From Pirellulales bacterium (GTDB lineage Bacteria > Planctomycetota > Planctomycetia > Pirellulales > UBA7805), in the NCBI GenBank assembly GCA_030751095.1, contig JASMGX010000010.1, forward strand, positions 1 through 37,727: 37,727 nt of DNA, given 5' to 3'. The position numbers and the translations under genes were made by a program. Below, in pieces: positions 3,963 through 28,819 of this stretch; position 1 is the first letter of the stretch; each line of letters begins with the position of its first letter. The notes under the pieces were generated by a model that saw only the letters and a program-made list of their open reading frames with translations, did no database searches and was not told where the DNA came from.

Positions 3963-3986
3963 TTCCACAGTCACTTGGACTCAACC

Positions 3987-4748: not shown

Positions 4749-5638
4749 CGATCCAACGCATCTACATCCCGACACACAAGGGCGATTTGCGCCTGACGGC
4801 GATCTGCGCAGCCAGTATCCGATACTGGTATCCCGAGATTCCTATCCTCCTGATCAAGGACTATTCGCACGGTTCCTTCGATACCAGCGAAATCGAACGC
4901 CTCTGTAACGCCAGCATCTTCCAGACCACAAAACGAGAATTCGGATGGGGATTTGCCAAGCTCGAACCATTATTTGAATCGGCAGGTGGGCGATTTCTCG
5001 TCGTCGATTCCGATACCGTCTTTACCGGACCGGTACTCGACACATTAAATCAGTGCGACACGGATTTCGTTGTCGACGACGAAACCCAACCGGCTCACGA
5101 AATCAAACGGCTCTATTTTGATCTGGACTATCTTCAAAAGATCGATCCCGACTTCAAGTTCTCAGGCAAGACTTTTAATTCGGGGCAATGGGTAGGCACG
5201 CCCGGATTAGTTTTACGTGAAGATTTTTGCCAGGTGCTCCACTGGGGAAATCCGCCTGAACTGAAGGATCCGTCATTCTTCATGCCGGGTGATCAAGGCA
5301 TCCTCAACTATGTTCTGAGTAAACTTGCACAACAAGGCACTCTCTCACTCGGCCGCATCCCACTAATGCTCTGGGCGGTTCGTGATATCGAACAACTGGA
5401 TCTAGAGCAACTCAAAGACAACAGTCCCTACCGGAAAATCATTCATTGGGCGGGTGTCAACAAGCAACGTCTCGGTGCGATGCCACGAGCAGACATTTTG
5501 CGTTTTTTTGAACAGTGCTATTTTTCATCGATGCCACTAGGCCCGTTGAAAAGACGACTACGTTCGTCAAAGAACTACGTCATTGGACAAACCCAGCGGG
5601 CAGTTCACAAAGCCGCGCGTCTTGCACGGGTCGCTTAG
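4745..5638 (+). CDS. Putative glycosyltransferase (GT-A-like)
   Basis: IYIPTHKGDLRLTAICAASIRYWYPEIPILLIKDYS and a DxD-like motif in FLVVDSDTVFTGPVLDTL. It is coupled to the previous gene by an ATGA overlap. Confidence 0.6.
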   Translation: MTIQRIYIPTHKGDLRLTAICAASIRYWYPEIPILLIKDYSHGSFDTSEIERLCNASIFQTTKREFGWGFAKLEPLFESAGGRFLVVDSDTVFTGPVLDTLNQCDTDFVVDDETQPAHEIKRLYFDLDYLQKIDPDFKFSGKTFNSGQWVGTPGLVLREDFCQVLHWGNPPELKDPSFFMPGDQGILNYVLSKLAQQGTLSLGRIPLMLWAVRDIEQLDLEQLKDNSPYRKIIHWAGVNKQRLGAMPRADILRFFEQCYFSSMPLGPLKRRLRSSKNYVIGQTQRAVHKAARLARVA

Positions 5639-5657
5639 CTTGAAGGGACCGAGAACC

Positions 5658-6560
5658 ATGGATATTACGAAACCAATCGCCCGCGGGCTTTTTGAATTGT
5701 CCTGTTTGGTGGGTCGGCCTATTGGTGGTCTCCGCCCACACCGGTTTGTACACTTGCTCGCCCAGCACGGTTTTGGAGATACTGCTCCTTCGCCCGAACA
5801 GTTTCGTTGGGTTCGAGATAACTTTGGCTCCGAGTTTCTCGTACATCCCTATTACCTGATCGATCGCTATATTCTCGCGTTTGGTTCCTACGAGTCGGCA
5901 CTGCACCGATACATCGGGGCGAATGTTTGCCGTGGGGCAACGTGTCTGGATGTCGGCGCAAACACGGGCGCTATCAGCCTGCATCTCGGGCGGAAAGTAG
6001 GCCCTGAGGGAAAAGTCCACTGTTTCGAACCGGTACCGCACATCCTGGAACGATTGCGACGGAACATCGAAAAGAATTTTTTAGCCGACGTGATTCAGGC
6101 CCATGGTGTCGCCTTGAGCGATCGGGCTGGCAAACAAGAAATGGCACTGGCCACAAAATCGCACACCAATCAGGGCATGTCCTCGCTCGTAGAATTCGGT
6201 CATGGCGACTTGACGGAAAGGGCAACGATTACCACGACCACCCTCGACTCTTTCGTAGCAGAACATGAAATTACCTCTGTCGACTTTATCAAAATTGATA
6301 TCCAGGGTGCGGAACCCTTTTTCCTAAAAGGGGCTCACAATACGCTGCAATCGTTTGGTCCACAACTCATTATGGAAATGGCGCCCGGCAGTCTTGCGGA
6401 TGCCGGTTACACGAACCGCGACTTAGTTGAGATGCTCCATTCTCTCAATTACGAGATTTTTGAACTGAGCGACAGTGGCAAGCGTGGTGCAGTCGTTGAC
6501 AGCCAACGCTGTGACGACTCGACCTTTTCGGCAAACGTCCTTTGCCAGAGGAAAGATTGA
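5658..6560 (+). CDS. FkbM family methyltransferase
   Basis: ATCLDVGANTGAISLHLGRKVGPEGKVHCFEPVPHILERLRRNI, VDFIKIDIQGAEPFFLKGA. ATG at 5658 is preferred over the track start 5583, which overlaps the previous CDS. Confidence 0.9.
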   Translation: MDITKPIARGLFELSCLVGRPIGGLRPHRFVHLLAQHGFGDTAPSPEQFRWVRDNFGSEFLVHPYYLIDRYILAFGSYESALHRYIGANVCRGATCLDVGANTGAISLHLGRKVGPEGKVHCFEPVPHILERLRRNIEKNFLADVIQAHGVALSDRAGKQEMALATKSHTNQGMSSLVEFGHGDLTERATITTTTLDSFVAEHEITSVDFIKIDIQGAEPFFLKGAHNTLQSFGPQLIMEMAPGSLADAGYTNRDLVEMLHSLNYEIFELSDSGKRGAVVDSQRCDDSTFSANVLCQRKD

Positions 6561-8098
6561 ACTCTTTGACGACGCTTGCACACAATAGGACCGCTGGCCT
6601 CTTGTCGGGACAACAATGGCTCGCCATCGTCGGCAGCAGCCTATTTGTTGTGTTTCTAACCTTCCCCGTCTACTCCGAGATATCTCCGTGGATCGGGCTC
6701 GGAATCTTTACGGGGGTGGCAACCATCATTCATTACGCATTGGTATCAGAATATATCCTCCCAATACCGCACGTTGCCATATTATTTGCCGTTCTCGGAT
6801 ATGTGATTGGCCCCTGGATTAATGTCCACTTCCCGCCCCCGCCGAGTGAGTCTGCTCCACCCCACTGGGCAGGCAGGCTCTATGGCGTACCCAATGATTA
6901 TTTTTCCTATGCAGGGCCGGTTGTTTTTGCAGTCGCCATCGGCTGGCTAAGTACCATTTCATTCATGCCGCGGCTTTGCGCACAGTACTCCAGAAAACTT
7001 CGCTATGGAGATACCCGACTCTTTTCGGCATTGGACTACTTACTGTTCGGTGGCATGGCATGCACCCTCTGTTTGTCGTACGGCCAAGAACTAATCCCAG
7101 GCTCATTAACTTTTCTTTTTATCCTATTCTCCAATCTTCGGTTTTTAGGGGCCATGGGGTGGATGCTTAGCGGACACCGTGGATGGATCTGGCGAACATG
7201 TCTTGTACTGGGTGTCGAAATATTAGCATCTACCTCCTCAGCATTTTTTTTGGACCTGATCCTCTGGGGCACAAGTTTTGCGGCGATTTTATTTTATCGC
7301 TATCGAGTCCCTAAATGGGCTTTGGTGATTGGCGTGTTGATGGCAGCACTTCTGATTCCCGGTCTCCAACATGCCAAATGGAAGCTCCGAGATATACAAC
7401 CGAACGAATCGGTCGAAGTCTTTGGGGAAAACATTCCTGCCACCCGGGGAAATCGTCCGTTGATTTGGATCGGTGCGCTCTATGAAGGAGTTGTGCCAGG
7501 ACTTACCTTGAGTTATTCGGACGAGTTTATTGGCGAAAATATCTTGCGCTACAATCAAGGATGGATCATCGATCGCGTGATGCGCCACATGCCGTCCCAG
7601 CGAGAGCATGCTGGAGGCGAAACGGTATGGAAAGCTGCCATTGCTGCGATCTTTCCAAGGTTCATGCTCCCCGATAAGGCGAACGCAGGAGGTCGGGAAA
7701 ACTTCACCACGTATACAGGCTTACAACTCAATGCGCGGACGAGCATGAATCTCGGCTATGCAGGCGAGATGTATGCCAATTTCGGTTTCTATGGTGGTAT
7801 TTTCGGTTGTTTCGCGTATGCCGCAGCGTTTGGATTATTGTTTCGCTGGATGAGCCTCAAGAGTCACGCACAGCTCATTATCCTTGCGTTTATTCCCTAC
7901 GTACTCCACTGGTCCGCTTTGATGGAAGTGGGATTGCTTGAAACGTTCGGATACACCTTCAAAGCAGCCATGGTTATGTTGGCAGTGCAATACGCATTCC
8001 CGCCTTTGAGATTCAAAAGCCCAAAACGTTTAAAAGAAATGAAGCCACGGTCACGACACTCTGAGACTGCAGGTCGAAAGATTCTAGCAAAATCCTGA
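6542..8098 (+). CDS. Wzy-like oligosaccharide repeat-unit / O-antigen polymerase
   Basis: 518 aa polytopic membrane protein with a large central loop (NQGWIIDRVMRHMPSQREHAGGETVWKAAIAAIFPRFMLPDKANAGG) and MNLGYAGEMYANFGFYGGIFG. The start may be TTG 6542 or TTG 6557. Confidence 0.7.
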   Translation: MPEERLNSLTTLAHNRTAGLLSGQQWLAIVGSSLFVVFLTFPVYSEISPWIGLGIFTGVATIIHYALVSEYILPIPHVAILFAVLGYVIGPWINVHFPPPPSESAPPHWAGRLYGVPNDYFSYAGPVVFAVAIGWLSTISFMPRLCAQYSRKLRYGDTRLFSALDYLLFGGMACTLCLSYGQELIPGSLTFLFILFSNLRFLGAMGWMLSGHRGWIWRTCLVLGVEILASTSSAFFLDLILWGTSFAAILFYRYRVPKWALVIGVLMAALLIPGLQHAKWKLRDIQPNESVEVFGENIPATRGNRPLIWIGALYEGVVPGLTLSYSDEFIGENILRYNQGWIIDRVMRHMPSQREHAGGETVWKAAIAAIFPRFMLPDKANAGGRENFTTYTGLQLNARTSMNLGYAGEMYANFGFYGGIFGCFAYAAAFGLLFRWMSLKSHAQLIILAFIPYVLHWSALMEVGLLETFGYTFKAAMVMLAVQYAFPPLRFKSPKRLKEMKPRSRHSETAGRKILAKS

Positions 8099-13747: not shown

Positions 13748-14662
13748 TCAATAGTCTGGGATCATTTCGGGAGTCAGCAGCGAGGGTCCTCTCACAACTT
13801 GCATTGTCGCGAGCAGGAAAGCGATCGCTTCTCGACACCCCATCAAGGGAAAGAGCCAGGGGCGTGCTGCCACAAACTTTCCACACCGCGGTCTGAGCAT
13901 GCGGTAGATGCAATTACCTATTGCCTGATGAATTTTCATATTGCGCAAGGTAAAATAATGCTCGCCGACAGATCCGCTACATGCAAAGGGATCGTACGCT
14001 GCCCGCCGCGACTCACAACCTCCCGCCATTGAAGCGAGATGGACGAGCGAGGCCGCAGGGACATATCTGGCCAGGCAATCGTATCGCGCGCAAAAGCGAT
14101 ACAAAAAGTCGCTATCCTCACGATAGGCTACTTTGTAAAACCGTTCATCAAAACCACCAATGGCACGGGCGAGACTACAATACACGCTAAAATTACCGCC
14201 GCCCATGTTCTTGATCCAGGCAGGTCGGCAGTGACTGAGAGGAAACCCAAGCTCAAAATCATCGATCTCATCGTGCTGTACCGGTCGATTCGCCGCGATG
14301 ATTTGGCCGGAAACAATCTTTACGTTTGGATCGCTATAACTTTCCTCGTGCGCCTTAATGAAGTCCTGCGATAAAATCACATCGTCATCTAAAAAAATGA
14401 TGATGTCTGATTTTGATTCGACGAGCGCCCGATTGCGGGCCGCTGAAAGACTGGGAACCTTCTGCCTAAGCCACCGAATCGTCCCCTGATCGTTCCAGCG
14501 TCTGAGCTGTCGCTTCGTCTGAGGTTGGTGTTCGACGGTTTGATCAACAACGAGAATTTCGTCCGCCTGCCGGCCTTGCGCCAGCACATGGCGAATCGTA
14601 TTGAGGAGCACGCCTTCGCGATTATAGGTCGGAATAGCAACGGTAATCGATAAATTACTCAA
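13748..14662 (-). CDS. Glycosyltransferase, GT2 (GT-A fold)
   Basis: LSITVAIPTYNREGVLLNTIRHVLAQGRQADEILVVDQT; IIIFLDDDVILSQDFI; GGFDERFYKVAYREDSDFLYRF. Confidence 0.93.
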   Translation of the reverse strand: MSNLSITVAIPTYNREGVLLNTIRHVLAQGRQADEILVVDQTVEHQPQTKRQLRRWNDQGTIRWLRQKVPSLSAARNRALVESKSDIIIFLDDDVILSQDFIKAHEESYSDPNVKIVSGQIIAANRPVQHDEIDDFELGFPLSHCRPAWIKNMGGGNFSVYCSLARAIGGFDERFYKVAYREDSDFLYRFCARYDCLARYVPAASLVHLASMAGGCESRRAAYDPFACSGSVGEHYFTLRNMKIHQAIGNCIYRMLRPRCGKFVAARPWLFPLMGCREAIAFLLATMQVVRGPSLLTPEMIPDY

Positions 14663-14829: not shown

Positions 14830-16068
14830 TTACGCTGGCACTGCTTGCACAGTTTCTTTTGTTGCTTGGCGACGACCGGAGTGCGACCTCGCCAATCGCA
14901 CATACTCCAGAAAATTTTCAGCGGCGCAAGTTGGCTCAAGATCCTCAGCCAGCGGTGGAATCGGACGCCCATCAAAGGGGGGTTCACCCCGCCAGGCCTG
15001 CAGCATGGCCCGGGCAAGTGCTGTCGAATCGTCGATCGGAACCAACGCACCGTTGATCCCGGCTGTGACCAGCTCATCGATACTGGCCCCTGCCGATCCG
15101 ATCACAGGCACGCCGCAAGCGAGGCTTTCTAGGACATTGTTCGGCAGATTGTCACAGCGGGACGGCGCAACCACTGCCACCGCCTTTTGCAGAACGCCAT
15201 AGAGTTCCGGTTTCTCCAGCGGCCCAAGCCAGGTGCAACGTTCACGTTCTGCGGCCAACTCTGGATAGACAGCCTCAAACTTTGCGTGTAACGGAAGTTT
15301 GCCTGCCCATAACATCTTCAAATCGGGTTCTTCTCGCCACGCCAAACACAAGGCATTGGCAACCACGTCCGATCCCTTGGCCCGGCCGATATTCCCAAAG
15401 TGAAAAAGATAACGCTCTGGCAAACGGCAAGCGACGCGTTCAGCCATTGGCGTTTCAAAGAAGAACGGTGGATGCACGACACCAACGGAAACTCCATGGT
15501 GAGATTGCTGATAATCGGCAAGAAAACGACTCGGTGCATAGACAAAGTCCACCGATTGGAGCCATCGCCGTTCGCGTCGGCCGCTCCAAAGACTATCCAG
15601 ACCGGGACGGTTACTCAGAACCTCGCCAATGACTCTCTCCGTTAAACTGCAACGGACGACGTGCGTTCGGTGGGGACGAGTCATTATGCACATCCCTGCC
15701 AACCGATAATCCGAACTCTGTACCAGATCAAATGGCAATGCTTGATGTCGCTGCTCCAGGGCCGCTGCCAGTACGGCCGCTTCACGATATACGGCAAAGG
15801 CACGACTCAATCGAAGACGCGGCCACAGCATCCCTGGAAGTGCACACACCTGCTCCCACCATCGAGCTGCCGGAGCGTGGACACGTTGCACGCGGACCCC
15901 ATGAAATTCAACGACTTCGGATACCTCCTGCGAGATCGTAAACACCTCGACATGGTGTCCCAGGGAGACCAACGTACGGCTCATCCGGCCCAAATAGGTC
16001 GAGAGACCACCCGCCGTTGTGAATTCAGTCGGAAACTCAGGCGTTACGAACGCGATCCGTACACTCAT
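14830..16068 (-). CDS. Glycosyltransferase, GT4-like
   Basis: VRIAFVTPEFPTEFTTAGGLSTYLGRMSRTLVSLGHHVEVFT; FHFGNIGRAKGSDVVANAL; VAPSRCDNLPNNVLESLACGVPVIGSAGASIDELV. Confidence 0.93.
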   Translation of the reverse strand: MSVRIAFVTPEFPTEFTTAGGLSTYLGRMSRTLVSLGHHVEVFTISQEVSEVVEFHGVRVQRVHAPAARWWEQVCALPGMLWPRLRLSRAFAVYREAAVLAAALEQRHQALPFDLVQSSDYRLAGMCIMTRPHRTHVVRCSLTERVIGEVLSNRPGLDSLWSGRRERRWLQSVDFVYAPSRFLADYQQSHHGVSVGVVHPPFFFETPMAERVACRLPERYLFHFGNIGRAKGSDVVANALCLAWREEPDLKMLWAGKLPLHAKFEAVYPELAAERERCTWLGPLEKPELYGVLQKAVAVVAPSRCDNLPNNVLESLACGVPVIGSAGASIDELVTAGINGALVPIDDSTALARAMLQAWRGEPPFDGRPIPPLAEDLEPTCAAENFLEYVRLARSHSGRRQATKETVQAVPA

Positions 16069-16071
16069 AAT

Positions 16072-17955
16072 TTACGCCTTTGGTCCACCAATCAACACAC
16101 TTCGTCCATCGCCGACGGGGGAACAAATCTCTCCATGGAATTGCCCCAACGATCTAAGCAGTTGTATGTACATTTGTTTGGGTGCTTGAAAACAGTCGGC
16201 ATTGTTCATTCCGAAATCATGGTGATTGTGTCCGTCACCCCAATGAATAAAACAAAGGCCATCGGGTCGCAGGCAAGAAATCCACTGCTTAAGGCAATGC
16301 TCCGGGTCGTAGCTATGATCGAAAGAATTGCTGTAGATAAAATCAACGCACCCTACCCACTCCTCCTTTACCTCGTGAAAGTCCCATTCAATAACATGCT
16401 CAACCTCAGTGGCCGAATTTGAGATTTCGGTTCCGATCACTTCGCATCCGAGTGTCTCACGAAGAAACTTCACCTCAACACCGGTACGGACTCCGTGGCA
16501 GATTCCGAATTTTGCCGATTGACATCGAGTGCGTATTGTATCGGCTACAAGTTCCAACTCTGATTCTCGAACCCAAACAGATGTTTGCTTCGCAAGATTT
16601 GTCTTACGCTGCGATTCCACGTACTCGTTATAGCTACTAAAGGTATGACACCGTGACTGACCAAGACGTTTGCGGTAAATCCATCGCCTTAAAACTACTA
16701 ATTTCGCATCGATTCTTTGAAGCACAGACGCTTTCACTGAGGATAGTCGTGAACGAAATAACCAGCACCAATATATCCAGTGCGATATAGAGCCAGATCT
16801 AGCAAACTGCTCACGACCTGGCAGTTCTTCAACACAAGGCTTCCAAGAGGAATGAATATGCTCTCTACCTACTTTTAGATAACATTCAAGAAGCTGATTT
16901 CTTCCAGCGATGATCTCCGGCGCAGCTTCGGTGTGCAGCGGGCCATGTTTTGGTGCGAAAAGAATTAGTTTCTTGTGGGGAACGAGTTTAGACACCGCGT
17001 AGGCAATCTGCCGATGGTGTGGATGACCACCGATGTCTCCATTAAAATGGTGCGTGATGACGGTATTGTATTTGGAAAGATCTATACCCGATCGATCAAG
17101 CGCCGCACTGAATACTTTTGGTCTAATTTTCGTCCGCTCGGTAGTTTGGTAGAAGTCCTGAACACTTCCGCCTTTGTACGGTATTTTACGATGCGGAATA
17201 TCGAGCGTAATAGGCCGTGCGCCACATGATTGACAAACTTGGCGAAATACGTCTTCAAAAGCAGAAACGTGCTCTCGACGCGTGGCACAAATCACATCCC
17301 ATCCTTGTCCATACTTTAGAAGCGTGGCACCTGCCGATACAACTTCGTCATCCCAATGTGCAACGATTAATGCTACTGGAGGCACAATATTAACGACGAG
17401 CGACTGCCGATAATCATTTGGCCGCAACTCGACTTGGCTGGTCGCGATCGGCGACCGGCGGATCGTTCCGTACATAATTTCTGCAATGCGTTCTGTCCGA
17501 TTACTGGGTGGCCGATAAGGAATGCAAACCGAATCCCGCTCGTTGACATATGAAGCGATGCTTTCCCTCAACTGCTCAATCTCATTCGTTTTCTGATCGG
17601 CTGCGAAACTAACGATCACCGTCGCATCCGGTTTCGCGACTCGATGGAATTCCTCTAGAGTCCGCAGTACGTCCGTTTTATAGATCATCCAGTTTGCAAA
17701 AATACAATCTACACTTTGATCCGGAAGGGGCAGGCACTCCGATTCCGCTTGGTGCGTCAGATTTGGAAAAGATTCGACATCGACTTGTATCATGTCACGA
17801 CAATCAAACCACTCTGAGTATTTACCGCCTTCAAAGTCGTCATCGGCACCACAACCGACATTCAACACCGTGTCAAATGTTTTGTCGCACACCACCTGCC
17901 GCAACCACCGATTGGATTTCATCCTCAGGTCTGTGGGCATGGTCGATACCCCCAT
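16072..17955 (-). CDS. Three-domain protein: SAM methyltransferase - PIG-L-type deacetylase - SAM methyltransferase
   Basis: N-terminal VLNVGCGADDDFEGGKYSEWF; LPDQSVDCIFANWMIYK; EFHRVAKPDATVIVSFA (class I methyltransferase). Middle ALIVAHWDDEVVSAGATLLKYGQGWDVICATRRE ... GDIGGHPHHRQIAYAVSKL (PIG-L/LmbE family). C-terminal GICHGVRTGVEVKFLRETLGCEVIGTEIS ... VDFIYSNSFDHSYDPEHCLKQWISCLRPDGLCFIHWGDGH (second methyltransferase). Confidence 0.8.
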   Translation of the reverse strand: MGVSTMPTDLRMKSNRWLRQVVCDKTFDTVLNVGCGADDDFEGGKYSEWFDCRDMIQVDVESFPNLTHQAESECLPLPDQSVDCIFANWMIYKTDVLRTLEEFHRVAKPDATVIVSFAADQKTNEIEQLRESIASYVNERDSVCIPYRPPSNRTERIAEIMYGTIRRSPIATSQVELRPNDYRQSLVVNIVPPVALIVAHWDDEVVSAGATLLKYGQGWDVICATRREHVSAFEDVFRQVCQSCGARPITLDIPHRKIPYKGGSVQDFYQTTERTKIRPKVFSAALDRSGIDLSKYNTVITHHFNGDIGGHPHHRQIAYAVSKLVPHKKLILFAPKHGPLHTEAAPEIIAGRNQLLECYLKVGREHIHSSWKPCVEELPGREQFARSGSISHWIYWCWLFRSRLSSVKASVLQRIDAKLVVLRRWIYRKRLGQSRCHTFSSYNEYVESQRKTNLAKQTSVWVRESELELVADTIRTRCQSAKFGICHGVRTGVEVKFLRETLGCEVIGTEISNSATEVEHVIEWDFHEVKEEWVGCVDFIYSNSFDHSYDPEHCLKQWISCLRPDGLCFIHWGDGHNHHDFGMNNADCFQAPKQMYIQLLRSLGQFHGEICSPVGDGRSVLIGGPKA

Positions 17956-20084
17956 ATTTCTGGGCGAGTGGGATCATTCCACGGCAAATTGATATGTGTT
18001 TGGTATCCGGCTGTCTTGAAAAACTGCTCAAGTTCGTGGACGCCCCAATCGACGACAAATTCTGTATGAAGTTCAATGCTGAACTGTTTCACCTCACGTA
18101 ACTGTTCAGGATCCATCGCGCGAAATACTTGCCATTCAGCTCCTTCACAATCGACCTTTAGCAAATCAATTATCCCGTCAACGCGACGCAGGAGATCTTG
18201 CATCGTGACTGATGCAACACGGGTAGCAGTCCCTGACTCGACTCTTCTTGCGTACACCGAGTTGGATTGTGGCTGTGCAGGAAACTCGTAGAACTCGACT
18301 CCGTTCGAATCCTGCCAAAGTGCCGCTGCCAGCAGGCGCACCTCGGATCCGACATCTTCTTTTGAGAGTCTGCGTTTTGCTTCGGTGATGGAGGCATCGC
18401 ATGGTTCGACTCCAATCACACGCCCGCCAAATCTTTTCACAAAAGGAATTGAGAATTCACCAAATTTGAAACCGACATCTACAATCGTGGGGCATTTTCC
18501 AAATAACTCTGACTTAAAGCGATGACCGCATAGCTCGCCAACACGGCTCGGGAGATGCGATTTCCACTGCAAGGTATCAGGCTGCAAGCGTCGATACAGA
18601 CTGCCAATCCGCCGTCGTAATTTTTTAAACGGTTCACACAATTGTAGATATCTAGAATATCGCACAGCGCGATTTAGTTGTCGCCGGATTTTTCTTGGCG
18701 ATTGATTCTTAAGTCGCCGAAAGTCACTGTCTCGAGCTAGCTTGCTGAATGCCGCGCCAAGATGTTCCGGGGCAATGAAGGTATCCAGTGTTCGAAAAGA
18801 ATACCCGACAGGATTAAAAGCTTTGACATGCACACCGTGATGGTGAGAAATCACTTCGTGAGGGCTGTAGGAGGGCAGACCAAATGCCTCTTCCATCATT
18901 CTCGCAAGAATCGCCTCGTTATTCATCACCTTGAGTGTGCGCGTATTCATTTGATTGGCAATACGATCAGCAATGGGTTTGACGAGATGGCCATATGTCG
19001 AGGGTTCAAAAAAGTGCACTCCTTGCATCTTCAAGTTGCCGGAAGAATCTCGTAGCGGTCGAACCACATTACTATATGGTTTTTGAATGTCTTGAGCGTG
19101 TCGCAGCCTGCTTTCCAACAACCACTTGTCTGTCAGAACCATATCCACATCGGTCATCAAGACCCCATCGTAATCTGCCCATTGTGGATCCCACATCAAC
19201 CAACGAAGCATTTTGCATGTCTGGTCGTCATAGCAACGTGCAGTCGTAAAGCGCGTGTACGGGAGTACTTCTGCGTCGATTCCAAGACGATTAACGATTT
19301 CATCCAACTGCCTCTGGCAGGCGGATACATCCTCTGCGGGTGCGTAGATGCGCACTGCTGGTGAACCTGGTAAATGGTGCGCCGAATAGGCCAAGAACGG
19401 CAAATATGCCGAGTAATTTTCTGTGCAAAATGCAGTAATCAGCAATTTGCTACGCAACTCTTTTTTTTGCCTCAGCCGATTTTCAAGATTACTCTGAAGA
19501 TCCCAATTGCGATCAGGTATGTAGTCAGTGTAACGCTTGACCAATATCTTATTATCGTGAAGAAACTGATCGTATGCATCTCGTCGGCTTTTCAAATGCG
19601 CGATTTTCGAAATGTTATCTTCATCACCGGGAGTGCCTAGAAAGAAATCAAAATGCATGTGCCAATTCGATTCAACAAGATCCCGATATACGGACCATTC
19701 GGCTCCCTCAATGTTCATCTTGAGGATATTGACTGCGTGACGACTCCAAAGTTGCCGATCAAGCCAGGAGGAAAAACGGCACACGGACACGGTATCGTAT
19801 CGTGACGGATCGACGTTGAACTTGTCGTCGTAGGGTGAATTCCCGACAGTATTTTTTGTTGCTTGGAACAGTTTTGCTTTCCCGTCTTTTTCACCAATTG
19901 CCAGAGGGTAAACATGGACATTCGGATACTTACGAAAACGGTGCTTGCAATGCGCAAACCACTTAGGATGTGGCTCAAAACCATGAATTACCCAGTCTTT
20001 CACGTGAAGCTTGCGCAAAGTGGCAATCATCATCGCTGTGACTTCACCTTCATTCATGCCGACATCGAACATTTGAACTTGCAT
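17925..20084 (-). CDS. Three-domain protein: FkbM-like methyltransferase - GT-A-like domain - FkbM methyltransferase
   Basis: N-terminal MFDVGMNEGEVTAMMIATL..IHGFEPHPKWFAHCKHRF..VNILKMNIEGAEWSVYRDL. Middle LLITAFCTENYSAYLPFLAYSAHHLPGSPAVRIYAP..DYDGVLMTDVDMVLTDKWLLESRL (DxD-like). C-terminal TIVDVGFKFGEFSIPFVKRFGGRVIGVEPCDASITEAKRRL..IDLLKVDCEGAEWQVFRAM. Confidence 0.8.
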   Translation of the reverse strand: MQVQMFDVGMNEGEVTAMMIATLRKLHVKDWVIHGFEPHPKWFAHCKHRFRKYPNVHVYPLAIGEKDGKAKLFQATKNTVGNSPYDDKFNVDPSRYDTVSVCRFSSWLDRQLWSRHAVNILKMNIEGAEWSVYRDLVESNWHMHFDFFLGTPGDEDNISKIAHLKSRRDAYDQFLHDNKILVKRYTDYIPDRNWDLQSNLENRLRQKKELRSKLLITAFCTENYSAYLPFLAYSAHHLPGSPAVRIYAPAEDVSACQRQLDEIVNRLGIDAEVLPYTRFTTARCYDDQTCKMLRWLMWDPQWADYDGVLMTDVDMVLTDKWLLESRLRHAQDIQKPYSNVVRPLRDSSGNLKMQGVHFFEPSTYGHLVKPIADRIANQMNTRTLKVMNNEAILARMMEEAFGLPSYSPHEVISHHHGVHVKAFNPVGYSFRTLDTFIAPEHLGAAFSKLARDSDFRRLKNQSPRKIRRQLNRAVRYSRYLQLCEPFKKLRRRIGSLYRRLQPDTLQWKSHLPSRVGELCGHRFKSELFGKCPTIVDVGFKFGEFSIPFVKRFGGRVIGVEPCDASITEAKRRLSKEDVGSEVRLLAAALWQDSNGVEFYEFPAQPQSNSVYARRVESGTATRVASVTMQDLLRRVDGIIDLLKVDCEGAEWQVFRAMDPEQLREVKQFSIELHTEFVVDWGVHELEQFFKTAGYQTHINLPWNDPTRPEIWGYRPCPQT

Positions 20085-20110
20085 CGTTTTTTATCGACCT
20101 CACAAATCAA

Positions 20111-21391
20111 CTAAATATTCTGCACAGGACGCCATTGCATCGGTGACATGACTCGACCTGCAAATTTCGTGTGCGGGTAAACCTGGCCGATCGATGAATC
20201 ATTCGTGACCTGCAATGCCATTGAGACCGGTGGCATACAATGTCGACCCCCTACTAAACCTGCGTGCAATTGAATTCTGTAGCCAACAGGGCCAAAAACG
20301 TTGGATGGAATCGTCCCGGTGACGAGATAATCTCCTGGATTCATCACACTCGGGATCGAATCGAGATCATCGTGAAAGGATCGGAAGATCAAAGTATCGG
20401 ACGGATCATAAACATCGAACCAGATTCGAAGACCTTTTACTTGTTCAAGAATGCGAAACTTAACGATCAGGTCGGTCGGATTGCCGTTAGAGATATAGAG
20501 CGATTGTTTTTTGCACTGTTCAATACGAACGTCAATAAGTTCAAACAAAGGATCGCCCGGAAGATCATTGACTTGTTGCTCAATTGAATCAAACCCCCCT
20601 GTCGGCACGATCGCATCTATGTATGTGTCGACCACACTTTGAGTATCACCATGCTTTGCAATACATCCTTTTTCAAGTAGCAAGGCACTGGTGCAGAGCC
20701 TCTGAATCGCTCCCATATTGTGACTCACAAATAGCACGGTTCTTCCACAACTAGTAACGTCTTTCATCTTTCCAAGGCATTTCCTTTGAAAAGCGCCATC
20801 TCCGACAGCGAGCACCTCATCGACGATCAATATCTCCGGATCGAGATGGGCAGCCACTGAAAAACCGAGCCGCACATGCATGCCATTCGAATAGTACTTG
20901 ACCCGGGTATCGAGAAAATCCTCGACCACAGCAAAGGAAACGATCTCATCAAATTTTCGGGAAATCTCCCGGCGGGTCATGCCAAGCACGGCACCGTTGA
21001 GAAAAATATTTTCCCGGCCCGTCAATTCAGGATGGAATCCCGTCCCGACTTCAAGCAGGCTACTGACCCGGCCACGAAGTCCGAATCGCCCGGATGTCGG
21101 TTCGGTAATGCGGGAAAGGATTTTCAAGAGTGTGCTTTTGCCCGCGCCATTGCGTCCGATGATTCCAAGAATCTCACCCTCTTTGACGTCAAACGATACA
21201 TCGCTGAGCGCCCAGAACGCGCCATTGCTCACCGAACGTTTGCTTTCGGAAGGTTTGGCCCGACAAACACTTCGGTGCAACACCCGCTTGAGGGAATTCT
21301 GCAACAACTCAGAAACGCGTTGGTATCGGGCTTGTGGCGCGATACTATATTTTTTTCCAAGATTTTCGACTTCAATAGAAATTTCGCTCAC
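20111..21391 (-). CDS. wzt: Polysaccharide ABC transporter ATP-binding protein with C-terminal extension (Wzt-like)
   Basis: GEILGIIGRNGAGKSTLLKILSRITEPTSGRFGLRGRVSSLLEVGTGFHPELTGRENIFLNGAVLGM; LDPEILIVDEVLAVGD. About 160 aa C-terminal region after the ABC domain, as in Wzt proteins with a carbohydrate-binding domain. Confidence 0.92.
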   Translation of the reverse strand: MSEISIEVENLGKKYSIAPQARYQRVSELLQNSLKRVLHRSVCRAKPSESKRSVSNGAFWALSDVSFDVKEGEILGIIGRNGAGKSTLLKILSRITEPTSGRFGLRGRVSSLLEVGTGFHPELTGRENIFLNGAVLGMTRREISRKFDEIVSFAVVEDFLDTRVKYYSNGMHVRLGFSVAAHLDPEILIVDEVLAVGDGAFQRKCLGKMKDVTSCGRTVLFVSHNMGAIQRLCTSALLLEKGCIAKHGDTQSVVDTYIDAIVPTGGFDSIEQQVNDLPGDPLFELIDVRIEQCKKQSLYISNGNPTDLIVKFRILEQVKGLRIWFDVYDPSDTLIFRSFHDDLDSIPSVMNPGDYLVTGTIPSNVFGPVGYRIQLHAGLVGGRHCMPPVSMALQVTNDSSIGQVYPHTKFAGRVMSPMQWRPVQNI

Positions 21392-21415
21392 AAGGCAAGA
21401 ATCCTTTCCTGCACA

Positions 21416-22375
21416 TTAAATACGGTCCGCGAAGGAACGCTCTGTATGTCGAAAATAAATCAATCCGCCGATCAGAATCGCCAATAGTATGGTGAAGCTA
21501 ACACCCATCATTTCCCAGGGAGGCATGCTTTTTCCCAGCAGCGCCCAGCGAAAACCTTCCAAAACCCCTACCATCGGATTCAATGCGTAGAGCGGCTGCC
21601 ACTGCTTCGGAATCACACTCGCTGTTTCGTAGACGACCGGCGAGAGGAAGAATCCAACCTGGATTAAGAACGGCACAACAAAACCAACATCCCTGTAAAT
21701 GGCATTGAGTGCAGAGAGCCAGATCCCCACCGCCAAGGACGTAAGCGCAGCAAGGGCAATAAACAGAGGCAGTGTCACAATATGCCAGGAGGGGAAAATA
21801 CCATACCAGGCCATCAAGCCAACAAGAACCAACATCGCAAAGAGCAAATCAACGATTCCCACCACGATGGTCGATAGCGGCAGGGCGAGCCGCGGAAAAT
21901 AGATCTTTGTGATCATGTTGCGATTCGTGACGAGGCTATTGCTGCACCCAGTCACCGTTGTGGAAAACAATTGCCAGCCCAGCAAACCACAAAATGCAAC
22001 AACGGCATAGGGAACGGCACCCACTATCGGCATATGGCCCATGAGATGAAAGAGCGTGGCAAAAACCAGCATCATGGTAAGCGGTTGCAATATCGCCCAC
22101 GCCACCCCGATCAGGGTCTGCCGGTAACGGACCTTCAAGTCGCGCAAGCCAAGGATCCAGATCGTTTCTCGATAACGCCATAATTCTGCAACATCGACGA
22201 TCCTAAATCGCGACCGACCTTCATAATAGCGCATCGGTAACGTGGCCTGGGCACCCTTATTCGAGTGCGCGGCGGTCTCCCCGGACGGGGGAGAATCAAG
22301 CGTATTTGGACACGTAGACACGAAACATCGATCTAAAAACGAGTTGCACGTACTAAGCGGCAGAGAGCCAGACAT
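21416..22375 (-). CDS. wzm: ABC-2 type polysaccharide export permease (Wzm-like)
   Basis: ELWRYRETIWILGLRDLKVRYRQTLIGVAWAILQPLTMMLVFATLFHLMG; FLIQVGFFLSPVVYE; LNPMVGVLEGFRWALLG. An internal ATG at about 22234 (MRYYEGRSRFR) may be the true start. Confidence 0.92.
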   Translation of the reverse strand: MSGSLPLSTCNSFLDRCFVSTCPNTLDSPPSGETAAHSNKGAQATLPMRYYEGRSRFRIVDVAELWRYRETIWILGLRDLKVRYRQTLIGVAWAILQPLTMMLVFATLFHLMGHMPIVGAVPYAVVAFCGLLGWQLFSTTVTGCSNSLVTNRNMITKIYFPRLALPLSTIVVGIVDLLFAMLVLVGLMAWYGIFPSWHIVTLPLFIALAALTSLAVGIWLSALNAIYRDVGFVVPFLIQVGFFLSPVVYETASVIPKQWQPLYALNPMVGVLEGFRWALLGKSMPPWEMMGVSFTILLAILIGGLIYFRHTERSFADRI

Positions 22376-22565: not shown

Positions 22566-25277
22566 TTAATTGAACTTTTTCCGAGGTAAGGAGACTTCTG
22601 CATCCCGGTTCGATCTGGCGATGCGTTGCTTCACCGCCTTCGCCAGTAGCGTTCTTGCTTTATGTGAATCTGGATTACGGGAGACGCACCAGCGAAGATG
22701 GGCTTCAGCATCTGCGAATTGTTCGAGTTGGATTAATAGTGTCGCCAACTGCATACGAACATCGAACCGACCTGAGTTACACCCCAGCGCACGCATTGCA
22801 CAAGACGCCGCTTTTTCAATCTCTTCAACACGCGAATAGGCTGTACTAAGGGTGTACCAGGTATCACAAAGATCCATCGAGTCTGCCTGCTGCTGAGCAA
22901 GCGCATAAAAATAATCGCAAACACTCTTTAATTGGGCAGTATTGCCCAACTGGGTATATTGATAAACGAACAATGGCCAGTCCTTTAGTTGAGGCTCCAG
23001 TATTTCAATCAACGCCTCTGCGGGAATGCGACTACTCAGGAGATAGAGAATGGCCTTCTTATTTTCGATCCCACATTGGAATGACTGTTTCCAATAAGCG
23101 ATCGCACCGGCAACATCACCCGCGACCGCCGCTTCTTTTCCTGCCATCAACAACACACTCCCGTCATGAGGCCTCACAAGCAGCGCCTGTTCGATATATC
23201 TTGATTTATCAAGATCTGTTCCGCCTTCTAAGAAACAGAGCTCCGCAAGAAAAAGATATCCTTCCCCTTGCAAAGGACATTGAGCGACCGATTGGTGTGC
23301 GTGCCACAAAGCCCGATCAAGAAGATTGCGATGATCACCGATAGCGCGATCGAGCCATTCGTTGAGTGCTGAACGCGACGGAAACTCAGACGCAATGGCA
23401 GCATCTCGAATCTGTCCCACATCCATAGGGTTTTTACTACTGCGCTGCTGGATCTGAAATTGCTGAAGGTAGATTGCCGCAAGGCGAAGATTGACCCGGG
23501 CATTGCCAATATGCTTCATTGAATAGGCTCGCAATGCCTGCTCCAGATTGTTGTCTAAAACATCGGACACTCGCTGAAGCTCTAATTGTTTCTGTGGATC
23601 ATTTGAAAACAATTTTTTCTCTTGCTCGATCGCAGTACGTTCTGTTGCATATTTCTGATAGCGGTCCCAATGAGCCGAAGCCACCGCAGGATCCCAAAAT
23701 ATGCTGACCATCCAGATGCCAACCACTGCAATCACCGGTGTTGCAAACAGCCAGGCCACACGAGGGACGGGATACCGCGACGGCTCCCGTTTAGAGTCTC
23801 CGCTCAATTGATATAACCGGCATGCGAGAGCGCACAGCACCACGGTCCACGACATACAAGCTGGTATGGACCAAACGAAATCGACTAACGAATGCACCGC
23901 ACTCGCCATCAAGGCCGCTGCTACAGCACCCACACAAGCAACTTCTGTCAATCTTTTTTGTCTTCTCAATGCCACCACACACCAGAACAGACAAAGACCG
24001 ACTGCTATGCATAAGAACGATAATCCCGCCAAACCTGTTTCGGAAGCGATTTGCAGATAGCCATTTTCTGCATGAGAAAACTCTACCGTATAAATATCTG
24101 GCAGAAACATTTTGTAATATTCTCGATGGGCTCCCACTCCATGACCGAACCACGGACTTTGCGTGAAAGCATTCCAATTCGCCTCCCAGAGTTCCATCCG
24201 AAGCCGCCCGGACTCGATACTATCGAGCGACATTTCCTGGACTTTATCCCACCGCTCACCAATTTGCTCTGCACCATGGATGGCAAACACCGTGATGCCA
24301 ATCAAAGCAAATACCAGGAGACTCATTGCGTGACGACGATCGAGAATTTTTGCCCATCCGTAAATGATACCTATGGTTGCCAACGCCGCTGCTAGTGCCA
24401 GTGCACCTCCTCTGGAAGTAGCTAGGATCGCGGTAAACCCTACGATACCTACCGCGATGCCAATGATGACTGTGAATACTGGACTCTCAAAAGGTTTGTT
24501 GCGCAGTCCAAAGACATTTTTCTCTCTCGGGTGTCTCTGTTTCCTACCATAGATTTTCATCCGATTGACAAAACACCAGATTAGCGGCCCCATTCCTAGC
24601 GCCAACAGGTGGACAAAGTGGTTGCGATTGCTAAATGGACCTTGGATATAAATCGCTTTTCGTTCGGGATGTTCATACGTCCAGAGAATTTTGCCATTTG
24701 TTGTCAGATACTGGGCTAAACCAAGAATCGCCATGCCAACTGTTGCCAATGCAATCCACGTCAAGAGTTTCTTCACATCTGCCAGGGATTGCACGCGCTG
24801 CACAACAACCACAAAAGTAAGTCCATACGCCACAAGCAGGGCAAGCCTCTGAATGGTCATGCCCGGATACATTGAGATTGTATTCCAACTTCCCAAATTG
24901 GCCTCTGTACCATCTGCCACCGACCATAACGGCAGTAGCGACTGCGTATTTGGTGAGAGTTGAGCGATGAAGTCGGCAGGCAGAGGAAAGATCTGAAAGA
25001 GGAGCAACAAGATGCCGCCAATAAATAGCCAATGTGCTGCGGAAGGTCGCCACAATGGCTCTCGCAATAAACATTGTCTTGAAAACCAAGCCACGCTCAT
25101 CACCGCAACAACAGACACAAAAACGAGACATCCCGTCGGATGTCGCCCACCGAGAACAAGAGGCGCGACAAAAAGAATGGCCAACAGACACAGGTCGACT
25201 AGATGCAGCAAGTGGCTTGGCAGGCCCGCATCTTGCGTTTCATATTTTGCAGATACCGGAGACACAGACAGTCTCAC
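22566..25277 (-). CDS. O-antigen ligase / polymerase family membrane protein with C-terminal TPR-like region
   Basis: Polytopic N-terminal half with FGHGVGAHREYYKMFLPDIYTVEFSHAENGYLQIASETGLAGLSFL (Wzy_C/WaaL-type signature). C-terminal half has alpha-helical repeats (RPHDGSVLLMAGKEAAVAGDVAGAIAYWKQSFQ..). Confidence 0.85.
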   Translation of the reverse strand: MRLSVSPVSAKYETQDAGLPSHLLHLVDLCLLAILFVAPLVLGGRHPTGCLVFVSVVAVMSVAWFSRQCLLREPLWRPSAAHWLFIGGILLLLFQIFPLPADFIAQLSPNTQSLLPLWSVADGTEANLGSWNTISMYPGMTIQRLALLVAYGLTFVVVVQRVQSLADVKKLLTWIALATVGMAILGLAQYLTTNGKILWTYEHPERKAIYIQGPFSNRNHFVHLLALGMGPLIWCFVNRMKIYGRKQRHPREKNVFGLRNKPFESPVFTVIIGIAVGIVGFTAILATSRGGALALAAALATIGIIYGWAKILDRRHAMSLLVFALIGITVFAIHGAEQIGERWDKVQEMSLDSIESGRLRMELWEANWNAFTQSPWFGHGVGAHREYYKMFLPDIYTVEFSHAENGYLQIASETGLAGLSFLCIAVGLCLFWCVVALRRQKRLTEVACVGAVAAALMASAVHSLVDFVWSIPACMSWTVVLCALACRLYQLSGDSKREPSRYPVPRVAWLFATPVIAVVGIWMVSIFWDPAVASAHWDRYQKYATERTAIEQEKKLFSNDPQKQLELQRVSDVLDNNLEQALRAYSMKHIGNARVNLRLAAIYLQQFQIQQRSSKNPMDVGQIRDAAIASEFPSRSALNEWLDRAIGDHRNLLDRALWHAHQSVAQCPLQGEGYLFLAELCFLEGGTDLDKSRYIEQALLVRPHDGSVLLMAGKEAAVAGDVAGAIAYWKQSFQCGIENKKAILYLLSSRIPAEALIEILEPQLKDWPLFVYQYTQLGNTAQLKSVCDYFYALAQQQADSMDLCDTWYTLSTAYSRVEEIEKAASCAMRALGCNSGRFDVRMQLATLLIQLEQFADAEAHLRWCVSRNPDSHKARTLLAKAVKQRIARSNRDAEVSLPRKKFN

Positions 25278-25337
25278 TTTATTTTCTGGAATCTAAAATT
25301 TTAATCAACCATCGGCTTTTTTTGAAATGATCCCTAA

Positions 25338-27668
25338 CTATGCCGCACGTCGAGGAGTTTGCAGGTCGGTTTGCTGAGCACCAGTTGTTGAATCCTCACC
25401 AGCAAAATCAATGGCAGGATATGCATCTTCACCATTTTCCTCATCGCTCAAACTGTAGCCGTAACCGTAACCATAGCCATGCTCGTCATCAAAGTTGTAC
25501 CCTTTTCCATTTTCAGAATTGACGCAATTGGCAACAATTCCAAATAGATGGATACCCATGCCGGTGAGGCTTTCCACAGCGCGGTGGACCAAGCGTCGAC
25601 GATTTTTTTCAGGGCGTACAACGAGCACAACACCATCGACAATCCGCCCGATGATCAGGGCATCACTTGCTACTAAGACAGGAGGACAATCGATGAGGAT
25701 CTGTTCGTATTGCGTTTCTGCCCAAGCCAGCAAATCTTCCATCCTATCACTCGAGAGCAACTCAGACGGATGCTGTCGTCGCGGCCCAGCAGGCAATATA
25801 TCGAGCTGAGGCATACTGGTCGGAAGGACGCACTCATTGACCAACTCTTTGAGATTCTGCTCGGAATACAAAACATCCGAAAGCCCCGATTGTCCCTTCA
25901 GATCGAGTAATTTCGTTAGGCCGGGACGTCGCAAGTCGGCATCAATCAGCAACGTCTTCTTTTCGGACTGTGCGTAGACTACAGCCAGATTCGAAATCAC
26001 CGTTGTCTTTCCATCCCCCGGTTCCGCACTGGTGAAGCAAACACGACTTGATTCATTCTCTGAGAGTGCCAAAGAGGTTCTCAGCGTCCGGAATGATTCG
26101 GCTTCGACTGAGTCCGGAGAGGTGTTGGATTGCAACACGTCCATACCAGCTTCAGAAACTGGAGGCAACTCTCTTATCATCGCTAAGAGTTGTTGTCCAA
26201 GCCGTTTGCTTAGCTCGTCCGGAGAACGAAAACGATCATCAATGATGTCTTGGACGTAAACAATCCCGCATCCGATGCTCAAGGTTGCCAGAAGACATAA
26301 AAAGACCACTCGCGAGAGCTTTGGTGAGACAATTTTGTCAGACGCAGTCGCTTCCTTAACAATCGTCGCTCGAATTTCACCACTTCCTTGCCGTAAGTCA
26401 ACACCGGCAATTTTCTCGACGAGAGCCTCGTGAAGTTTCCGCAACCTCTGCACATGCTGGCTGAGCATATTGTGATGTGCTGTATCCCGCTCATGCAATA
26501 CTGCCTGTTCACGGGCATCATCGAGTGAATCGCGCAATGCCGCTTCTTTCTGCATCGATTTATTCAACTCTTGCTGTACCATTTGGACCAGCATGGGACC
26601 GAGTTGGGTCGCCTCCAATTCATCGAATGAACTTCGAACCGTTTCTTTGTATTCCACAAGATAGTCTCGGGTGGCTTGCATGCGATTCTGCAACTCGATA
26701 ACACGCGGATGTGCTGGACCAAAGTCGTTAGCTAATGATTGTAATTCTGCCTTGTCTTTTAGGAGTCCCCGCTCCAACTCGATTCGAAGACGAGCTTCAT
26801 CCCTGTTGAATCCAAGGCCTGTCATCAAAAGTTCGCGACCGATCGTCTCTTCAACAGCCATCGCATATTGCTTGAGATCTTCACCACGACTGATTGCACG
26901 CTGGATTGCCATAATCATGGACTCGTGCGTCAATCGTTCTTTCTGTGCGTCAACCAATGCTTCGTTCAGGCTAACGACTGTTTGAATCAGAGGGTGAACA
27001 ATGTGGCTGCCTTCATCGATGGTAAAATCGCCAACTGCCAACCGTGCCGACAGTAATGCTGCTTCCTTTTCAGCTAATTCTTCCGCAATCTTGTCTTTTT
27101 CCTGAGTCATCACATTTAGGATTTTTTCCGTGGCTCCCTTGTGGGTACTATCTACAAAATCCAAATAGGATTGAATGATCGCCTGAACGACTGCTACGGC
27201 GATCTGCGGATCTTTCGAAAAATATTCCAGGTTTAAAACGGTGGTATTCCGTACAACATTCGTGTTCACTTTACGCGCCAAGACGTGATACCAGGAATCG
27301 AGAGGAACACCTGCAAACTCGGACAGACAGACATTCGGAAGATAGGCAATTGCTCCCGCCAAAACGGGCTGACTAACAATGAGTTGCTGGTGGGTTGGCA
27401 TGAGGCGTTGACCGGCCATATTCACGCCGAGAGAATTTTCGGATGCGTCAAGACCTGATCGAACAATCAGAATGGATGCACTTGCCTTGTAGTACTTTGT
27501 TGCTGTCAACGCATACCATACCCCGATGATGCCAACAACAATCGCTGTGGCAAACACAGTGCTCTTGCGATACCAGATGACCCGCAGAAAACGGAGTATC
27601 TGATGCACTGATCCCGCCGCATTGGTGACCGGCGAACCGTAGGCTTCATTGATGTATTCAGCAGACAT
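25338..27668 (-). CDS. Polysaccharide biosynthesis tyrosine autokinase (Wzz chain-length domain + BY-kinase)
   Basis: N-terminal Wzz-like TM and coiled-coil region; Walker A FTSAEPGDGKTTVISNLAVVYAQ; Walker A' TLLIDADLRRPGLTKLL; Walker B ILIDCPPVLVASDALII; C-terminal Tyr-rich tail HGYGYGYGYSL. Confidence 0.95.
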   Translation of the reverse strand: MSAEYINEAYGSPVTNAAGSVHQILRFLRVIWYRKSTVFATAIVVGIIGVWYALTATKYYKASASILIVRSGLDASENSLGVNMAGQRLMPTHQQLIVSQPVLAGAIAYLPNVCLSEFAGVPLDSWYHVLARKVNTNVVRNTTVLNLEYFSKDPQIAVAVVQAIIQSYLDFVDSTHKGATEKILNVMTQEKDKIAEELAEKEAALLSARLAVGDFTIDEGSHIVHPLIQTVVSLNEALVDAQKERLTHESMIMAIQRAISRGEDLKQYAMAVEETIGRELLMTGLGFNRDEARLRIELERGLLKDKAELQSLANDFGPAHPRVIELQNRMQATRDYLVEYKETVRSSFDELEATQLGPMLVQMVQQELNKSMQKEAALRDSLDDAREQAVLHERDTAHHNMLSQHVQRLRKLHEALVEKIAGVDLRQGSGEIRATIVKEATASDKIVSPKLSRVVFLCLLATLSIGCGIVYVQDIIDDRFRSPDELSKRLGQQLLAMIRELPPVSEAGMDVLQSNTSPDSVEAESFRTLRTSLALSENESSRVCFTSAEPGDGKTTVISNLAVVYAQSEKKTLLIDADLRRPGLTKLLDLKGQSGLSDVLYSEQNLKELVNECVLPTSMPQLDILPAGPRRQHPSELLSSDRMEDLLAWAETQYEQILIDCPPVLVASDALIIGRIVDGVVLVVRPEKNRRRLVHRAVESLTGMGIHLFGIVANCVNSENGKGYNFDDEHGYGYGYGYSLSDEENGEDAYPAIDFAGEDSTTGAQQTDLQTPRRAA

Positions 27669-27691
27669 CGACCGCCAATCCTTGATACGAT

Positions 27692-28819
27692 TTAAAACAG
27701 TGGAATACTCGTCGAGGCACCAATGCCAAAATTTATAAACCGGTTAAAGGCTTCGAAGATCACCGTTGCCGGAGTCTGTTCCACGCTTACCACATCGCCC
27801 GATGCGAGTCGGATATTTTCCGAATACTTACGTTTTGCTGCACGAAGGCTGACCTTGATAACTTGAGCCTCCGCTTTATCGGGTACGCGGCGGATTACAT
27901 AAATCTTATTAGCCACCGGAGAAATAATGCCACCTGACAATGCAATGGCGTCAAGGACTCGCAATTCTCGATCGGTTGGTAACGTATATTCACCCGGTTT
28001 CCGCACCAGGCCTAACACCTGGATCGGATTCTGATCTCTTTTATGGACCATTACGACATCACCATCTCGCAGATTGATGCCTCGTCCTGCCTGACTGGCA
28101 GAAATGAGATTAATGCGGACGCTCCGCGAAGCTGAAGGCGAAGATGCTGTAGCATCGACCGAATAGCTTGCCATTCGATTCTCCGTTTGATCCACAGAGC
28201 CGATCGGACGTTGCGCCGGACTGCGGACTTCAATATTCATACTTGCATCATCCTTGAGCCCGCCTGCTGCGACAAAAGCGGAGAGCAGGTTCGATGAGCT
28301 GCGAGGCAATTCATACGAACCTGGCTTTTTAACGGCGCCAATAACAGTGATTTTGCTGATACGCTTGTTCTCCATCACCACTGTCACATGTGGATTTCGG
28401 TAGACACCACGCGAAATGGCTGCTTGGCGAATAACCAGTTCGGCCTGCTCGAGTTCCATGCCCGCTAAAGGAATTTGGCCTAACAGTGGCAGTAGCGCAA
28501 CTCCGTCATCGCCAATTCGCACAGGGACCGTTAAGGGTTGCTTGTCTGCAACGCCACCAATGACTGTCACTTCAATCACATCTCCCGGTTCAATCAATAC
28601 CGTGCTAGATGAAAATCCCGATAGCCGAGAGAGATCAAGCGTTCCTGGATTGATAATGCGAGGGGCAATAAGATTTGGTGGAATATGCTTTGGCGTCACG
28701 ATCGGTTTATAGCACCCGAAGGACACAAGTACGCATAATCCCGCTAAGAAGATGTTCCCGGCGAGGCAAACACCCGTTGGGAGTTTTGACTTATCAGTTT
28801 TAGAATGTGCGATGACCAA
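27692..28819 (-). CDS. Polysaccharide export outer membrane protein (Wza-like, Poly_export + SLBB domains)
   Basis: Lipoprotein-like signal LAGLCVLVSFGCYK; VLIEPGDVIEVTVIGG; ITVIGAVKKPGSYELPRSSSNLLSAFVAAGGL; IQVLGLVRKPGEYTLPTDRELRVLDAIALSGG. Apparent TTG start. Confidence 0.92.
   Translation of the reverse strand: MVIAHSKTDKSKLPTGVCLAGNIFLAGLCVLVSFGCYKPIVTPKHIPPNLIAPRIINPGTLDLSRLSGFSSSTVLIEPGDVIEVTVIGGVADKQPLTVPVRIGDDGVALLPLLGQIPLAGMELEQAELVIRQAAISRGVYRNPHVTVVMENKRISKITVIGAVKKPGSYELPRSSSNLLSAFVAAGGLKDDASMNIEVRSPAQRPIGSVDQTENRMASYSVDATASSPSASRSVRINLISASQAGRGINLRDGDVVMVHKRDQNPIQVLGLVRKPGEYTLPTDRELRVLDAIALSGGIISPVANKIYVIRRVPDKAEAQVIKVSLRAAKRKYSENIRLASGDVVSVEQTPATVIFEAFNRFINFGIGASTSIPLF

Follow-up and report, generated by a model that had tools for sequence, protein, structure and literature searches.

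The wzm and wzt genes of a Pirellulales bacterium and the two genes that follow them, which encode fusion proteins of 719 and 627 amino acids (aa), may together form a lineage-specific end-tailoring cassette for ABC-dependent glycan export, in which the tailored end is read by the C-terminal domain (CTD) of Wzt. We hold this reading tentatively; a capping role for the two fusion proteins is a reasonable guess. The genes lie on contig JASMGX010000010.1 in a stretch of 37,727 nucleotides, which was analysed as a whole and is referred to below as the window. So far, cap-and-read export has been described in a few model organisms. Our survey suggests that another entire phylum commonly uses it, with Wzt proteins ending in domains of the carbohydrate-binding domain (CBD) type and with methyltransferases (MTs), kinases or sulfotransferases encoded directly after wzt. 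The surveyed loci are concrete candidates for new cap chemistries, of which the window cassette is one lineage-specific example.

Gene Order and Surroundings

The genes for Wzm, Wzt, the 719-aa protein, the 627-aa protein and a GT4 glycosyltransferase (GT) follow each other in this order of transcription, all on the minus strand, and an ORF check confirmed both this order and the coordinates of the original prediction, including the C-terminal extension of Wzt. Wzm is an ABC-2 permease of 319 aa (21416..22375; PF01061, ABC2_membrane, E 4.4e-19). Wzt (426 aa; 20111..21391) consists of an NBD (ABC_tran, E 2.3e-21) and the CTD; the NBD is of the polysaccharide-export ABC type, with Aquifex Wzt as the best PDB relatives (E 1e-61). 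The ORF of the 719-aa protein (17925..20084) starts after a gap of 26 bp from wzt, in which a GAGG-like ribosome site is seen, and overlaps the ORF of the 627-aa protein (16072..17955) by 31 bp, so that the predicted short gap followed by overlapping ORFs is indeed there. The next gene, that for the GT4 (14830..16068; PF13692, E 3.7e-21), is separated from the 627-aa ORF by 3 bp. In scans of the locus promoter-like sites were not in excess over shuffles and terminator-like sites were only about one standard deviation above them. The two fusion genes (47.5–47.8% GC) are slightly AT-richer than most of the island, a difference too weak for transfer to be argued from it.

Upstream on the minus strand (22566..28819) Pfam identifies a frame of three genes, for an SLBB/Poly_export protein (27692–28819), a Wzz/BY-kinase (25338–27668) and a Wzy_C/TPR protein (22566–25277), and the same three genes are found in the same order in genomes G003, G004, G005, G008 and G009. 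On the plus strand the window carries a GT cluster that also has FkbM genes (3975–4748 and 5583–6560). Two ORFs of this cluster (4745–5638, 297 aa; 6542–8098, 518 aa) are without any Pfam match; G003 and G005 have weak relatives of the 518-aa ORF (25–30% identity) in the same island.

The Two Fusion Proteins

The 719-aa protein has an FkbM MT domain at either end, one at residues 1–150 (19635..20084, minus strand; PF05050, E 1.4e-9 for the isolated domain) and one at residues 515–700 (17985..18542, minus strand; PF05050, E 1.2e-21). In the full protein PF05050 matches residues 7–132 and 536–695, and TIGR01444 (fkbM_fam, NCBIfam) likewise covers two stretches. By eye the catalytic motifs look intact: both ends have DVGxNxG-type loops and an IEGAE/CEGAE motif, and the N-terminal domain keeps DVGMNEG, FEP and NIEGAE. 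Since the two domains are 22.6% identical, they are an old pair. Because a genome search with the whole protein scored two candidates per genome, the central domain (about residues 206–470; 18675..19469, minus strand) was searched for separately. It gave no Pfam match even at E = 1 and no PDB match at E ≤ 10, and no relative was found in the other 245 of the 246 genomes searched or in viral contigs. The sole hint of a GT, putatively GT-A-like, is a DxD-like TDVDM motif. Thus, of the predicted architecture FkbM-GT-FkbM the two ends were found again, whereas the GT in the middle is unproven. An AF2 model of the protein made without an alignment was unusable (pLDDT 33.5). Residues 461–502 contain basic amphipathic stretches.

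In the 627-aa protein Pfam finds, as predicted, an MT, a PIG-L and a second MT domain. The N-terminal domain is of the Methyltransf_11 type (residues 1–185; 17401..17955, minus strand; PF08241, E 3.7e-7 for the isolated domain). It is followed by a PIG-L (LmbE-like) de-N-acetylase domain (residues 194–330; 16966..17376, minus strand; PF02585, E 3.9e-7, above cut-off) with the metal-site motifs AHWDDE and HPHH (family pattern AHxDDE and HxxH), a basic hydrophobic stretch (residues 413–435) and a class I MT domain (residues 436–603; 16147..16650, minus strand; PF08241, E 3e-4; PF13489, Methyltransf_23, E 7e-4). A literature search did not find PIG-L/MT fusions.

The C-terminal MT belongs to a family with the pattern CHGxRxGxE...EWDFHEV, whose members are mostly encoded away from wzm-wzt. 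For example, the stand-alone relatives in G461 and in G100 (Hyphomicrobiales) are not near these genes. A stand-alone relative from another family (G274, locus L058), 51% identical, is encoded inside a wzm-wzt operon with the order Wzz/BY-kinase, Wzy_C/TPR, wzm, wzt, GT2, MT. A first iterated HMM had also assigned to the family an MT of L084, where a kinase adjoins, and one of L109; closer inspection showed these to be generic MTs (E 1.7e-3 and 5e-4), so this link was dropped and L058 alone was kept. In two distant genomes the Wzz/BY-kinase and Wzy_C/TPR block thus runs straight into wzm-wzt (window 22566–28819; L058 2–8048), and both blocks mix parts usually assigned to the Wzy-dependent pathway with parts assigned to the ABC-dependent one. 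The Wzm of L058 (4508–6742) has 744 aa, with about 480 extra residues before ABC2_membrane that have no Pfam match.

Full-length relatives of the 627-aa protein were found neither in 57 relatives or 392 genomes of the phylum nor in 98 genomes of the order (the window's own included in both the phylum and the order set), nor in genome contigs covered by a patterned search or in plasmids, and the phylum, order and plasmid searches likewise gave none for the 719-aa protein. Both fusions were matched in genomes by single domains only, and their recurrence together with this Wzt subtype was not seen in phylum, order or genus genomes, in plasmids or in the patterned contig scan. The Pfam matches of the two proteins do not include a kinase family, and a PDB search with them gave no WbdD-like match.

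The C-Terminal Domain of Wzt

The Pfam model Wzt_C matches the Wzt extension (residues 262–426; 20114..20608, minus strand) weakly, partially and below cut-off (E 0.022 with the full protein, 0.003 with the domain alone), and for this reason the extension was examined by structure. The domain was aligned with 58 CTDs taken from the phylum's wzm-wzt loci and then modelled. The AF2 model is a beta-sandwich of eight strands (pLDDT 84.1), and in a Foldseek search of the PDB ranks 1–17 are all CBDs of Wzt or WzmWzt proteins, among them the best match, Aquifex 6o14 (E 9.5e-7), further 8dky and 8dku, the Wzt C-terminal domain 2r5o, and the Kdo-reading O12 structures 5hno/5hnp. A profile of 59 relatives compared with PDB sequences finds the Aquifex CBD (E 4.4e-14), 2r5o (1.3e-3) and 5hno (8e-3). 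Structure prediction thus shows a CBD fold, as had been proposed, and makes the CTD plausible as a cap reader.

The ligand of the Aquifex CBD is 3-O-methyl-mannose, whose methyl group stacks against Trp362 (PMC9445017). In a sequence alignment, in which the two domains are about 16% identical, the window CTD lacks an aromatic residue at the position of Trp362. A 3-O-methyl ligand can therefore not be assumed, and the ligand probably differs from that in Aquifex.

The Position After wzt Across the Phylum

A wzm homologue (E ≤ 1e-15) is present in 205 of the 392 phylum genomes. Eighty loci were fetched, to which the window and L057 were added, and in 44 of them the gene immediately downstream of wzt (position +1) was taken. 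It encodes an MT in 13 loci (window, L057, L066, L071, L074, L075, L076, L078, L083, L099, L113, L128 and L135; that of L078 was called by a local FkbM model), an APH-type kinase in three (L084, L137 and one more by family count) and a sulfotransferase in three (L070, L103 and L118). With the window excluded, Pfam finds Methyltransf_11 in 10 of 43 cases at +1 versus 9 of 123 at +2 to +4 (Fisher p = 0.0076); other MT models of Pfam gave p = 0.004 to 0.008 and a conservative union p = 0.025, all for loci that are not phylogenetically independent. These Pfam counts replace an enrichment obtained with an HMM seeded on the +1 MTs, which was biased. Position +1 is thus enriched in MTs in the phylum, and that the WbdD-like position is MT-rich favours the general idea of capping. 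The nearest relative of the window CTD, that of L057, also has an MT at +1. On a tree of the CTDs, however, MTs at +1 are not clustered (13 changes versus 13.5 ± 1.4 after shuffling), although the tree has little power, given the strong divergence of the domains.

Several loci have other genes at this position. The APH-type kinases directly after wzt, in L084 with a class I MT following the kinase (L084, 11541–12716 and 10693–11520; L137, 11566–12732; L142, 11559–12734, the last by family count), belong to loci within a supported clade of Wzt CTDs (99% SH-aLRT), and these loci are candidate split methyl-phosphate capping systems. The sulfotransferases after wzt (L070, 11678–12556; L103, 4020–4817; L118, 8519–9313) or two genes on (L180, 2787–3788) may point to sulfate caps. 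Two related genomes encode, directly after wzt, proteins of 681 and 700 aa without a Pfam match (L085, 7195–9240; L088, 10752–12854).

The Same Slot in Congeners

Three congeners, G003 (L175), G004 (L174) and G005 (L177), share with the window the genes for SLBB, Wzz/BY-kinase and Wzy_C/TPR upstream and, downstream, those for a GT2 (13748..14662, minus strand; 67–68% orthologs) and the facing GT p12404; in G004 the GT4 is also kept after the slot (53%). What lies between differs. The slot of G003 holds genes for two sulfotransferases, a FemAB/GNAT protein, a class I MT and GTs, and that of G005 has a G003-like layout as judged by ORF sizes and an MT match. The slot of G004 holds a sulfotransferase gene and, on the opposite strand, a gene for a GT-MT fusion. 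None of the three slots holds wzm-wzt; in G005 wzm-wzt is found elsewhere on the contig of the frame, and in G003 a wzt likewise. The sequence of the closest congener, G002 (86–91% identity), ends inside the Wzy_C/TPR gene, before the slot. Tailoring genes with no exporter beside them are thus common at this place, which is a swappable tailoring slot. The four genes of the window fill it together, which supports a common function of exporter and fusions.

Proposed Function and Alternatives

With respect to a new cap module read by the Wzt CTD, the original prediction is thus borne out in the CBD fold and in the MT-rich position after wzt, but not in full-length relatives of the fusions or a link between CTD and MT; and the evidence, including the other genes in the congener slots, is largely against a conserved linkage across genomes.

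The cassette would export a lipid-linked glycan via the ABC-dependent route. At the inner membrane the fusion proteins would modify the growing non-reducing end, the FkbM and class I domains by O-methylation and PIG-L by removal of an N-acetyl group, and the central domain of the 719-aa protein may add a sugar. Binding of the finished end by the CTD would then license export through Wzm/Wzt, and the ligase-type Wzy_C/TPR protein and the envelope machinery encoded upstream would take over the product. We infer that both modifications, methylation and deacetylation, take place at the chain end, that elongation stops as a result and that this CBD reads them. The tight spacing of wzt and the two fusion genes favours a cassette; counting against a cap, four MT domains and a deacetylase exceed the needs of a simple one, Trp362 lacks an aromatic equivalent in the CTD, and most relatives of the C-terminal MT are encoded away from wzm-wzt. 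A more specific version is decidedly unlikely. In it the export licence would be a sugar end with a free amine, left by de-N-acetylation, and with several O-methyl groups, made by two obligately paired fusions and read by a divergent Wzt CBD; its chemistry would differ from that of the caps in the literature consulted, namely methyl, phospho-methyl and Kdo.

Almost as likely as end-tailoring is decoration along the chain. The fusions would then tailor sugars within each repeat, the adaptor or the core by methylation and de-N-acetylation and would determine the surface chemistry of the polymer rather than its length or export licence, the CTD reading another feature. This is a real possibility: four MT domains and one deacetylase are in keeping with elaborately modified repeats, the congeners have sulfotransferases, FemAB/GNAT proteins, MTs and GT-MT fusions in the slot without adjoining wzm-wzt, FkbM genes are also found in the plus-strand GT cluster, and there is no co-variation between the CTD and an MT at +1. 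However, the enrichment in MTs is specific to position +1, which internal decoration alone does not predict, and the exporter and the fusions occupy the slot together. Rather unlikely is a third explanation, namely that the fusions serve the Wzy-type pathway of the SLBB, Wzz/BY-kinase and Wzy_C/TPR frame (or a small glycolipid or a protein O-glycan) and that they adjoin wzm-wzt because both lie in one shared polysaccharide island. The congeners, with frame and tailoring genes but no wzm-wzt in the slot, indicate that slot genes can serve the frame alone, and the exporter genes elsewhere on the contigs of G005 and G003 fit this. On the other hand, gap and overlap make wzt and the two fusion genes look co-translated, and in G274 the frame leads directly into wzm-wzt and an MT gene of the same family as the C-terminal MT of the 627-aa protein, so that frame and ABC exporter can belong together.

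Comparison With Known Systems

WbdD, an MT-kinase that terminates the chain, is encoded with Wzm/Wzt in Escherichia coli O9a and O8 and in Klebsiella pneumoniae O3 and O5. The window resembles these systems in that a multi-domain MT-containing protein is encoded after wzt and in that Wzt has a CBD-type C-terminal domain. It differs in that four MT domains and a deacetylase are spread over two fusion proteins, and no sequence relation to WbdD was found in the PDB search. Position and MT domains are thus as predicted for a WbdD counterpart, but because the fusions have no kinase domain, the analogy is positional only.

By analogy, WsaE from the S-layer glycan cluster of Geobacillus stearothermophilus (wzm-wzt-wsaE) is a closer precedent, which the original prediction did not name and which lessens the novelty of the module. 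WsaE is an MT-GT-GT protein that makes a chain-ending 2-O-methyl cap; wsaE directly follows and overlaps wzm-wzt, and the GT activity of WsaE is proven (PMC2943079). The window likewise encodes an FkbM MT fusion directly after wzt, although between its MT domains there is a domain of uncharacterised type with unproven GT function, and a second protein with PIG-L is added. ORF6 of K. pneumoniae O7, encoded next to wzm-wzt, combines MT-kinase, coiled coil and GT-GT (PMC11231755). It illustrates how varied terminators built as MT fusions beside wzm-wzt can be; it has a kinase and a coiled-coil ruler, whereas in the window fusions no kinase was found. On the side of the reader, the CBD of Wzt from Aquifex aeolicus (6o14, 8dky), which reads a 3-O-methyl-Man/Rha cap (PMC9445017), is the best structural match of the window CTD, in which an aromatic residue corresponding to Trp362 is missing. 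With WbdD, WsaE and Klebsiella O7, multi-domain MT terminators at this position are already known.
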